Below, one piece after another: positions 19,649 through 22,890 of a stretch of DNA of 64,000 nt. Below the pieces are notes generated by a model. The model saw nothing but the letters and a program-made list of their open reading frames with translations, was not told the DNA's origin and ran no database searches. The DNA lies in assembly GCA_945787635.1 (NCBI GenBank), contig CALZIK010000021.1, forward strand, positions 1-64,000, given 5' to 3'. The stretch's first letter is position 1; every line of letters starts with the position of its first letter. The DNA is from Thermoanaerobaculia bacterium. GTDB lineage: Bacteria > Acidobacteriota > Thermoanaerobaculia > Multivoradales > JAHEKO01. The position numbers were made by a program, and so were the translations under genes.

Positions 19649-20193
19649 TTCTCGGCTTCCGCTCGGGTCAGGCGGAAGGCCATCTCGCCGGCCGCCTCGC
19701 CGCTCGCCTGCGCGAACCAGATGCTGTCGAGGCCGCCGTCTTCGAGGATGCGGATGCGAGCCGAATGGATGTGCTCGTCCACGGCCGGGTCGAGGTTGGT
19801 CCCGCCGTCGAATGCGAACACCAGGTCGCCGGCAGAGCTCGCCTCCCGGTCGAGTCGCATGCGCGGCTGGTTTCCGCCGGCGCAGTAGTGCGTGAGAAGC
19901 AGGTCTTCGCCGTCGAGGTGGTACATGTTGATCATCTCGTGGTCCGAACCGGGAGCCATGGTCTCCATCACCACAGTGCCTCCCGCCGAGACCTCGAACT
20001 CGTGGACGGCGTGCGGCTTGGCCCGGGCTTCCGCCTCGGCCTCCTCGCCCTTGCCCTCAGGGGTACCGGTCCAGGTGCCCTCGAGTGATTTGAGCTGGTC
20101 GAACACCGACGCGGCGTCGACACCGGCCCATGCCGGCACGCCGGTCGTGGCGGCGACGGCAAGAGTCAACATTACGATCGAGAGTCTCTTCAT
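19645..20193 (-). CDS. Secreted DUF1579-like beta-barrel protein
   Basis: 182 residues with a clear signal peptide (MKRLSIVMLTLAVAATTGVPAWA). The mature part has the pattern of DUF1579/lipocalin-like proteins: LKSLEGTWTGTPEGKG, then VVMETMAPGSDHEMINMYHLDGEDLLLTHYCAGGNQPRM and a C-terminal FAQASGEAAGEMAFRLTR strand. This family is associated with small-molecule binding but has no defined biochemical role. It is convergent with the S41-like gene (4-nt 3' overlap) and divergent from the DyP operon. Confidence 0.75.
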   Translation of the reverse strand: MKRLSIVMLTLAVAATTGVPAWAGVDAASVFDQLKSLEGTWTGTPEGKGEEAEAEARAKPHAVHEFEVSAGGTVVMETMAPGSDHEMINMYHLDGEDLLLTHYCAGGNQPRMRLDREASSAGDLVFAFDGGTNLDPAVDEHIHSARIRILEDGGLDSIWFAQASGEAAGEMAFRLTRAEAEN

Positions 20194-20260
20194 GGGCTCC
20201 TCCTCGGTGTGTATCTGGCGAAAACCGAATCATACCACCGCCCTGTGCGGATCGCTTTGC

Positions 20261-20266
20261 TAGACT
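20261..20266 (+). promoter_or_regulatory. Extended -10 element of the DyP operon
   Basis: TGC-TAGACT (hexamer 20261-20266), 55 nt upstream of ATG 20322. Unlike the leaderless cases this leader carries a Shine-Dalgarno (GGAGG at 20309-20313, with further purines). No clear -35 is visible. Confidence 0.4.
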
Positions 20267-20321
20267 GCGCTCCAGAATCAATGAACATCAGCGTTTTCGC
20301 GGTGCAGGGAGGAAGGGGGAC

Positions 20322-21815
20322 ATGCTAGGCCCGCTGGAGAAACTCTGGCGAGAATCCATGGTTCTCTACCTGCGGACGGGCGTCACCGTGCTCGAAACCG
20401 CCGCCGACGGCCTGAAGAGCGTCGAAGCGCTGATCGAAGGCAGGAGCCTTCCGCCCGGCATCGACTCCGACCGGCCGCTCGACCCTACGACGCCGGAGGC
20501 CATGGCATTCCTCGCCGGCCTCCAGGGGAACATCCTCAAGGGACACGGGCGTGATCACGCCATGCATCTTCTGGTCTGCTTCGGCCGACCTCGCGACGAG
20601 GCGGCCCACGCCGCGGCGGTGCCCAGGATCAGAGCCTGGATCGGGCGGATGACCGACACTCGGGTTACCTCGGCGGCGGCCCAGTGGCAGGACAGGGCCC
20701 GGGAGACGACCCTGACGACGTTGATGCTTAGCAGCCGGGGCTACGAGTTTCTGGGTGAGAAGAGACCTAGAGACGGAGCCTTCAGAGAAGGCATGCAGGA
20801 GCGCGGCCGCCGGCTCGGGGATGCTCCGGTCGGAGCCTGGGAGCCCAGGTATCAGCGCGACGCCGCGGAGATTCACGCTCTGGTCATCGTTGCCGCGCGT
20901 GATCCCGAGACTCTGGACTCCATCAAGGAGCCCATCGATCGCGAGCTCGCCGCGGCCGGCGGTTCGATCCTGGTCGACGAGCGCGGTCGGCAGGAGCGCG
21001 ACAGCTCTCCCAAGCGCCGGGCAATCGAGCACTTCGGGTACGCCGACGGTGTCAGTCAGCCGCAGTTCGTTCATGACGCAGCTCCCGCCGCCCGACACTA
21101 CGACCAGCGGGCTCCGTTGAATCTGGTTCTGGAACCGGATCGGCACGCTCGGGGCGGATTCGGCAGCTATCTCGTCTATCGCAAGCTCGAGCAGAACGTG
21201 AAGTCGTTTGAAGCGGCGGTCGAGAAGGTGGCGCGCGAGCTCGGGCAGGAGCCGGAGCTGGTTGGCGCGATGGCTATCGGCCGGTTCAAGAACGGAACCC
21301 CGGTGGCGACGCAGGCGGGGCCGAAGCCGGGCTACGATCCGCGCCGCGATGAGGACTTCGACTACGACCGGGATCCCGACGGCAGCAAGTGCCCTCTACA
21401 CGCGCATGTCCGAAAGGTCAATCCGCGCGGCTCGCTCGGCTTCCTGGTCAACATCCTCGCCCGCGAGCAGCGGCGCCGGATCGCTCGCCGCGGGATAACC
21501 TATACCGACGAGGACAACGGCACGGTCGGCCTGCTTTTCATGTGCTTCCAGAACGATATTCGAGATCAGTTCGAGTTCATTCAGCGTTCGTGGGCCAACA
21601 ACCCCGAGTTCAGCGAGCAGGGCACCGGCCTGGATCCGATCGTCGGGCAGGCCGGCGGCGCCGCGGGACCCGACGACTCACCGAACTGGCCGACCGGCCA
21701 CGGCTCGAGCGGCCGCAAGCGAATACGGTTCGATGAGCACGTGAGGCTCCTGGGCGGCGAGTATTTTTTCGCGCCCAGTATCGCCGGTCTGCACGCGCTG
21801 GCGGGAGGCGGCTAG
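20322..21815 (+). CDS. DyP-type heme peroxidase
   Basis: 497 residues from ATG 20322. The DyP signature GXXDG appears as FGYADGVSQPQF. The C-terminal heme region is present: proximal-His candidate in HAHVRKVNPR, followed by RRRIARRGITYTDEDNG and LLFMCFQNDIRDQFEFIQRSWANN. Length and sequence fit the larger DyP classes. No Tat or Sec signal is visible, so it is probably cytoplasmic. It would oxidise organic substrates with hydrogen peroxide. The ABM-domain gene starts 7 nt after its stop, and a thiol/selenol peroxidase-like gene is next on the opposite strand. Confidence 0.92.
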   Translation: MLGPLEKLWRESMVLYLRTGVTVLETAADGLKSVEALIEGRSLPPGIDSDRPLDPTTPEAMAFLAGLQGNILKGHGRDHAMHLLVCFGRPRDEAAHAAAVPRIRAWIGRMTDTRVTSAAAQWQDRARETTLTTLMLSSRGYEFLGEKRPRDGAFREGMQERGRRLGDAPVGAWEPRYQRDAAEIHALVIVAARDPETLDSIKEPIDRELAAAGGSILVDERGRQERDSSPKRRAIEHFGYADGVSQPQFVHDAAPAARHYDQRAPLNLVLEPDRHARGGFGSYLVYRKLEQNVKSFEAAVEKVARELGQEPELVGAMAIGRFKNGTPVATQAGPKPGYDPRRDEDFDYDRDPDGSKCPLHAHVRKVNPRGSLGFLVNILAREQRRRIARRGITYTDEDNGTVGLLFMCFQNDIRDQFEFIQRSWANNPEFSEQGTGLDPIVGQAGGAAGPDDSPNWPTGHGSSGRKRIRFDEHVRLLGGEYFFAPSIAGLHALAGGG

Positions 21816-21822
21816 CCCAGGC

Positions 21823-22158
21823 ATGATCGCGAGGCTCTGGTTCGGCAGCACGCGTCCGGAAGACGCCGAGTCCTACGTCGAGTACCTGGAACGGACGGGG
21901 GTTCGCGCGCACCGCTCGACCCCGGGCAACCGAGGATCGCTCGTTCTGCGCCGAATCCGAGACGATCGGGCGGAGTTCCTGGTGCTCTCCTTCTGGGAGT
22001 CGGATGAGGCGATCAGGGGATTCGCCGGCGAAGACATCGGCCAGGCGATCTACTTTCCGGAAGACGAACGCTTCCTCGTCGAGCGCCGTGATGCCATCGA
22101 CCATTTCCAGGTCGTCGGCGGCGAGACCGACCTCGACGTCGAGCCCCCCGCCGAATAG
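21823..22158 (+). CDS. ABM-domain (antibiotic biosynthesis monooxygenase-like) protein
   Basis: 111 residues. The pattern of a dimeric ferredoxin-like ABM fold is visible: IARLWFGSTRPEDAESYVEYL, then RAEFLVLSFWESDEAIRGFAGEDIGQAIYFPEDERFLVE and a final DHFQVV strand. The FWES and DHF residues are characteristic of the family. Members include heme-degrading enzymes and quinol monooxygenases. Its position 7 nt after the DyP peroxidase suggests co-transcription and a linked oxidative or heme-related job, but the substrate is unknown. Confidence 0.8.
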   Translation: MIARLWFGSTRPEDAESYVEYLERTGVRAHRSTPGNRGSLVLRRIRDDRAEFLVLSFWESDEAIRGFAGEDIGQAIYFPEDERFLVERRDAIDHFQVVGGETDLDVEPPAE

Positions 22159-22164
22159 TGCCGC

Positions 22165-22752
22165 CTAGGTCTCGCCTCGCCGCCAGAAAGTGGGTGCGTC
22201 CTTGTACTTCATGCCCTTCGGATACTCGTTGCCGTCGGTGTCGAGGCGCATGGTGATGTTGAACTTGTTGCCCCAGTTGAAGATGCTGGTCGCGAAAGCG
22301 AGCTCGACTATCTCGTCGTCCGAGAACTCCTCCTTGAGGCTCTGCCAGAACTCATCGGTGACCGAATGTGGGTCCATGGCCATGCGCTCGGCCAGCTCGA
22401 CGGCGATCGCCTCACGACTCGAGAGAGTCGAATAGTCGCCGGAGAGGATCGCTTCTTCCTTGGGCTCCACGTCGCTGCGCACGGCAGCGGTGCGAACGGT
22501 GCTTCAGTAATGGCAGTCGTTCATCTGGCCGGTCTTGACCCGCATCATCTCGAAGATGTGCGGCTCGACTCGGCCGCCGCCGAAAAACGAGCCGAAGACC
22601 GGGACGATGCTCTTCAAGAGATCCGGCACCCTTGCGATGACCCCGAACATCTCGGTGTCATGCCACCAGCCTTCCTCGCCGTCAACGAGAAGCTGCTTGA
22701 GATCGGCATCGTCGGTGTCGTCTTTGGTGATCGGCTGGATTCGTGAGGGCAT
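22165..22752 (-). CDS. Carboxymuconolactone decarboxylase/AhpD-like selenoprotein (UGA = Sec83)
   Basis: 195 residues if the in-frame TGA at 22506-22504 is read as selenocysteine. The start ATG 22752 has GGAGG a few nt upstream. Residues 1-82 end MMRVKTGQMNDCHY; after the TGA the same frame continues STVRTAAVRSDVEPKEEAIL and on to AVELAERMAMDP...LAFATSIFNWGNKFNI, the normal second half of a CMD/AhpD-type helical protein. The UGA therefore replaces the second Cys of the family CxxC redox motif, giving C80-H-Y-U83. A bacterial-type SECIS hairpin follows. It probably acts as a peroxide- or disulfide-reducing thiol enzyme. The alternative is a Cys-to-stop pseudogene, less likely given intact flanks and the hairpin. 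Confidence 0.8.
22468..22492 (-). promoter_or_regulatory. Candidate bacterial SECIS element
   Basis: Minus-strand hairpin directly downstream of the UGA: CACC (22492-22489) and GCTGC (22488-22484) pair with GCAGC (22478-22474), G22473 and GTG (22470-22468), leaving a 2-nt bulge (22472-22471) and a 5-nt loop CGTGC. Twenty nt separate the UGA from the loop, and a G lies in the first two loop positions. Both features match known bacterial SECIS rules. Confidence 0.65.
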
Positions 22753-22890
22753 GGCGTTCCTCCAAAGGTGATTCGAAAGAGGCGATCCTATCGCGGGCGG
22801 CCGAGGCCGACCGAAGCCCGTGCGACGACGGGTTGCGTCTTCGAGAGTCGGCAGTGCATAGTGGCTCTGCGTCTCCGGGCGCCGAGCGCC

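Follow-up and report, generated by a model that had tools for sequence, protein, structure and literature searches.

An in-frame UGA in an AhpD/CMD-like gene of a Thermoanaerobaculia genome: a predicted CxxU selenoprotein with haloarchaeal cysteine homologues

A gene of an acidobacterial genome that looks broken by a stop codon is almost certainly intact and encodes a redox enzyme containing selenium: the genome has the full Sec machinery, and four related bacteria share the stop codon and the RNA hairpin at the corresponding active-site position. The gene is located on the minus strand of the window, by which is meant the whole stretch of 64,000 nucleotides that was analysed, and which belongs to a MAG of the Thermoanaerobaculia group (4.36 Mb, 97.7 % complete, 203 contigs). 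By sequence, the encoded protein is a CxxU AhpD/CMD-like selenoprotein. The best explanation, which we regard as highly probable, is a selenoprotein gene in which SelB-dependent incorporation of Sec at position 83 would create a Cys80-Sec83 redox pair; insertion of Sec at the UGA, taken on its own, appears close to certain. The intact frame, the complete machinery, the conserved UGA, the exchange of Cys and Sec, and the confinement of a hairpin to UGA genes were all computed directly. By analogy with AhpD, the role of the protein is likely to be that of a thioredoxin-type-dependent selenoperoxidase or of a redox adaptor.

The gene and its reading frame

The frame starts with an ATG at 22752, is interrupted by a TGA at 22506-22504, and ends with a TAG at 22167-22165; it thus consists of 82 codons, the TGA, 112 codons, and the TAG. 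The following features are referred to below:

22165..22752, minus strand: predicted selenoprotein gene, AhpD/CMD-like; 195 codons with the UGA read as Sec83, plus TAG; Cys80-x-x-Sec83
22759..22763, minus strand: GGAGG, Shine-Dalgarno-like, 6 nt 5' of the ATG, read directly from the sequence
22513..22515, minus strand: Cys80 codon, first and putative resolving residue of CxxU
22504..22506, minus strand: in-frame UGA codon at the second redox Cys position; the sole TGA within the frame
22492..22494, minus strand: Arg87 codon, aligned with the proton-relay His of AhpD; 9/9 clade members have Arg here
22468..22492, minus strand: bSECIS-type stem-loop with a 6-bp upper stem, loop CGUGC, a 2-nt bulge, and a lower stem of 2-3 bp

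The translation around the TGA reads ...GQMNDCHY*STVRTAAV..., which gives the motif NDC-H-Y-U-S when Sec is inserted. The initial annotation had described two same-frame ORFs split by one TGA at 22506-22504, and the minus-strand frame from 22752 to 22165 confirms this description; as it also predicted for an automatic pipeline, a standard gene caller renders the frame as two ORFs. A scan of the window for in-frame TGA codons flanked on both sides by 60 or more codons returned 160 such frames. Among the best 15 of these 160, i.e., those with the most coding-like third positions, the gene described here was alone in having C-x-x before the TGA combined with a 6-bp bSECIS-type stem-loop at a matching distance.

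Four homologues with 77-85 % protein identity were found in other acidobacterial MAGs (L030-L033), all of which carry UGA at codon 83, in the motif CHYU or CAYU. Comparison of the five clade genes yielded dN/dS values of 0.06-0.29 upstream of the UGA and 0.10-0.38 downstream, and the low values downstream indicate selection on the part following the UGA as protein, with no change of frame. There are no frameshifts, and selection is purifying both before and after the UGA, in agreement with the earlier view that the frame is otherwise intact. Because four relatives share the UGA with purifying selection after it, neither a base-calling error nor a nonsense mutation of recent origin can account for it. 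The gene is patchy in its distribution within the family: besides the window's genome, a close copy was found in just 4 of 148 relatives, and none was found in the same-genus genomes G001 and G002, in both of which selB is present. One occurrence lies in a different family of the same order. No relative turned up in viral contigs or phage records.

Selenocysteine machinery of the genome

Family searches of the window's genome for the Sec machinery showed that SelA, SelB, and SelD are encoded, as is a tRNA-Sec(UCA), which means that all four of the genes proposed for inspection in the initial annotation (selA, selB, selC, and selD) are present. The tRNA-Sec scored 73 bits (Rfam cut-off, 47) and was assigned the anticodon TCA by ARAGORN; it is 100 nt long with an 8-bp acceptor stem in its predicted fold. 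SelB occurs in 131 of the genomes of 148 relatives, most of which belong to the order and class of the window's genome; the Sec trait is therefore the rule in this group. Those relatives that carry names are MAGs of Acidobacteriota/Thermoanaerobaculia.

The genome has two selD genes (L016, G000:C151, and L017, G000:C195), one with an in-frame TGA at SCAG-U-ASK and one in a Cys-or-other form. The TGA-containing SelD is likely a second selenoprotein of the same genome, and the Cys-or-other selD, which lies inside an 864-codon open frame, may be an oxidoreductase fusion.

Exchange of Cys and Sec and the hairpin after the UGA

The alignment comprised 38 homologues, which came from plasmid records and from a search of the phylum. 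The column of the UGA contains UGA in 22 of them and Cys in the other 16, with no third residue. This is the outcome anticipated by the earlier placement of the TGA at the second Cys of a CxxC motif, for which the occurrence of Cys in homologues had been suggested as a check. A hairpin follows the codon at a nearly equal distance in 22/22 UGA genes and in 0/16 Cys genes. In 21 of the UGA genes, 6-8 consecutive stem pairs are present at the expected place, while reading of the sequence and folding revealed an equivalent 6-bp stem with loop CGUGA, 3 nt nearer to the UGA, in the 22nd (L044). The Cys genes reach a maximum of two consecutive pairs at this place. The p value of the stem comparison (5e-8) is indicative only, as the sequences are related. 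The 22 UGA and 16 Cys genes form a clean natural experiment in which the hairpin accompanies UGA and is absent with Cys.

In the window, the upper stem of the hairpin is formed by the pairing of 22489-22484 with 22478-22473 (6 bp), which encloses the loop CGUGC at 22483-22479; below the 2-nt bulge, three more pairs extend to 22492/22468. The stem starts 11 nt and the apical loop 20 nt after the UGA, so the location of the hairpin in the initial annotation stands, and its distance of 20 nt is correct for the apical loop but not for the stem. According to the rules for bSECIS elements, the apical loop comprises 3-9 nt and is located 16-37 nt from the UGA, with G at loop position 1 or 2 followed by G or U (PMC13188914). 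The loop CGUGC, starting 20 nt from the UGA, has a G within its first two positions and then a U. The earlier suggestion that spacing and loop G fit a bacterial SECIS element is thus in line with these rules and with the conservation of the hairpin. The stem of the window clade consists of 6 bp with a CGUGC or CGUGA loop. At pair 21-31, three sequences have U-A and the other two C-G, i.e., one compensatory change; many such changes were seen in the wider set.

In isolation, the window hairpin is no more than would be expected by chance. Its fold energy did not differ significantly from that of dinucleotide shuffles (z = -0.66) or synonymous-codon shuffles (z = -0.73); the synonymous null is exceeded by two of the five clade members (L032 and L033). 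Synonymous divergence over the hairpin among the five clade genes was not unusually low (rank 56 of 178 windows), and an Rfam search did not find a SECIS match at the window locus. As the single-sequence z scores are ordinary, the window sequence by itself proves nothing about the hairpin, and the case is carried by the comparative evidence.

The triloop GGC was observed in all 16 distant acidobacterial UGA genes with standard spacing (L029, L034, L035, L037-L041, L047, L049, L052-L054, L057-L059). These AhpD-like genes have a stem of 6-8 bp at exactly the same distance from the UGA and show strong covariation: pairs 17-33 to 23-27 vary yet stay paired except in one cell. The set could be used for training a bSECIS model. 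Another observation concerns five Cys-form homologues from Acidobacteriota (family f25; L036, L042, L043, L045, and L055), which have Thr or some other residue instead of the first CxxC cysteine (TPYC, TQYC, TPCC). The residue at the Sec position is the sole one left in this single-thiol variant; the neighbours of its clade use Sec.

Family placement and nearest known systems

CxxU AhpD-like selenoproteins (COG2128/YciW, TIGR01926 'peroxidase-related') and CMD-like ones go back to the Sargasso Sea survey (PMC1088965), and recent reviews list them (PMC9312934, PMC13188914). The class, recognized as a known one in the initial annotation, dates from 2005, and the window gene adds a member to it, not a new kind of system. 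What is new, from sequence comparison, is a clade below the cut-offs of the tested models, with a changed active-site residue and a hairpin form of its own. The window protein shares with the AhpD-like CxxU group the Sec at the second position of CxxU, a bSECIS in the coding region, the existence of Cys homologues, and the superfamily, and the distant acidobacterial UGA members of this group can be aligned with it over the full length. The window clade is nevertheless separate (100/100), has Arg instead of His, and carries a CGUGM pentaloop instead of the GGC triloop.

The TIGR01926 profile matches residues 4-168 of the window protein, with the CxxU/CxxC redox motif present in the alignment, at a score of 56.6 bits (cut-off, 81.8); scores of 46-54 were obtained for the four close homologues. 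The best NCBIfam match by E-value is the seleno/Cys family NF053654 (YciW-related (seleno)protein), for which the score is 57.3 bits and the cut-off 310. L044, a near-member of this family, has the CGUGA loop in common with the window clade, but its identity to the window protein is only 28 %. NF041238 (AhpD_rel_CFYUT), of the CMD-like selenoproteins (PF02627), has a related motif, CFYUT compared with CHYUS in the window protein, which scores 18.9 bits against a cut-off of 175. For the Pfam CMD model (PF02627) itself, the score is 16 bits and the gathering score 23. Since the window protein falls below the cut-off of every Pfam and NCBIfam model, standard annotation likely splits members of the clade in two.

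The tree groups four haloarchaeal Cys proteins with the five acidobacterial Sec proteins in a single clade (100/100), which a long branch sets apart from the rest. The haloarchaeal sister group, annotated as 'carboxymuconolactone decarboxylase family protein', comprises Halorientalis marina WP_246989178.1, which is 55 % identical to the window protein, and its relatives. The sisters have the same Arg after the motif; they differ from the window gene in having Cys for Sec, in being without the hairpin, and in being plasmid-borne.

The best sequence matches in the PDB are PA0269 (2ijc, 2o4d, 7xw1; E ~5e-8) and Mlr4105 (3c1l). The Glu and the CxxC spacing are common to these proteins and the window protein, whereas the active site is Cys/Cys/His in the former and Cys/Sec/Arg in the latter. 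An AlphaFold model made from five sequences was of low confidence (mean pLDDT 60). A Foldseek search with this poor model placed the AhpD-like proteins PA0269 and Mlr4105 first, with no match below E 0.001; the debrominase Bmp8 was among the weak matches. Given the low pLDDT and the weak fold matches, the active-site geometry is not argued from the model.

Active site, proposed mechanism, and alternative explanations

The proton-relay site of M. tuberculosis AhpD is formed by Glu118, Cys130, Cys133, and His137 (PMC3141380); across the AhpD-like structures that it compares, the same paper describes the His after the second Cys as invariant and essential. In the five Sec proteins, Glu68, Cys80, and Sec83 are invariant; the Glu precedes the first Cys by 12 residues, and the CxxC spacing is that of AhpD. 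The His four residues past the second Cys was not found: Arg87 occupies this place in 5/5 Sec and 4/4 haloarchaeal Cys members. The combination of the Cys80/Sec83 pair with Glu68 suggests an AhpD-type peroxidase or redox adaptor, and assignment as a peroxidase is weakened by the Arg at the proton-relay position.

In the proposed mechanism, SelB with Sec-tRNA(Sec) would recognise the stem-loop just downstream of the UGA during translation, upon which Sec would enter the chain at position 83, creating the Cys80-x-x-Sec83 redox pair in an AhpD/CMD-like protein of 195 residues that is mostly helical. By analogy with AhpD (PMC3141380), Sec83 would attack peroxide or another oxidised substrate, Cys80 would resolve Sec83 as a selenenyl-sulfide, and a thioredoxin-type donor would re-reduce the pair. 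We lean slightly towards chemistry of the peroxidase type; that the partner is of the thioredoxin type has, in our estimate, an even chance. Such a donor is pointed to by the position of the Cys relative between two thioredoxin genes on a plasmid of Halorientalis marina (L061, 4547-5934), which is guilt by association on one plasmid. The relative also lies behind a bacterio-opsin-activator-type regulator, and the thioredoxin/Cys-relative cluster is possibly a redox operon.

The window itself contains a Dyp-type peroxidase gene (20130-21815, plus strand) with an ABM-domain (antibiotic biosynthesis monooxygenase-like) gene close by (21823-22158, plus strand), both of which converge on the selenoprotein gene. 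The initial annotation drew attention to membership beside a DyP peroxidase; this was not borne out in the four closest relatives, which have other neighbours. DyP peroxidase was therefore rejected as a functional partner; in the window, its gene lies on the opposite strand and converges on the selenoprotein gene.

A serious alternative, to which we give somewhat less than an even chance, is a selenoprotein that is not a peroxidase, with a Cys-Sec pair linking a thioredoxin to another enzyme as a redox adaptor or reducing a different substrate. The invariant Arg87 throughout the nine-member clade, the two thioredoxins accompanying the Cys form, the function of AhpD itself as an adaptor of AhpC (PMC3141380), and the appearance of Bmp8 among the fold matches are all consistent with this. 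Loss of the His need not mean new chemistry, however, as it is not universal in the wider set: the UGA homologues L044, L047, L057, and L058 have Asn at this position. Nor was a conserved neighbour gene pointing to another pathway found among the four closest relatives. A more far-reaching, and unlikely, version is that the whole nine-member clade, Sec and haloarchaeal Cys forms alike, might be a separate enzyme family with a Glu-Cys-Sec/Cys-Arg site and thioredoxin-linked non-peroxide chemistry, e.g., on another oxidised or halogenated substrate, the Cys and Sec forms having been exchanged between haloarchaea and acidobacteria.

Explanations without Sec have far lower probabilities. The two called ORFs, together with the lack of a close copy in G001 and G002, are what one could see in a pseudogene, or where misassembly had produced a nonsense codon; this is refuted in practice by the UGA common to five separate genomes, the purifying selection past it, the complete Sec machinery, and a hairpin that accompanies UGA but is missing from Cys genes, and we regard it as the least probable reading of all. 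Only marginally less improbable is a true stop, where residues 1-82 and a GTG-started C-terminal polypeptide would assemble, or readthrough of the UGA would insert some residue that is not Sec. In-frame GTG codons do exist in the second part, e.g., at 22482, but this reading leaves unexplained both the Cys/UGA exchange at one column and the hairpin found solely with UGA, in a genome that has tRNA-Sec and SelB.

Significance

SelB is near-universal in the class Thermoanaerobaculia, yet little on its selenoproteins was found in the literature searched. With the UGA read as Sec, an apparently broken gene becomes one for a predicted intact selenoenzyme, and an undescribed clade would be added to the CxxU AhpD-like selenoproteins.
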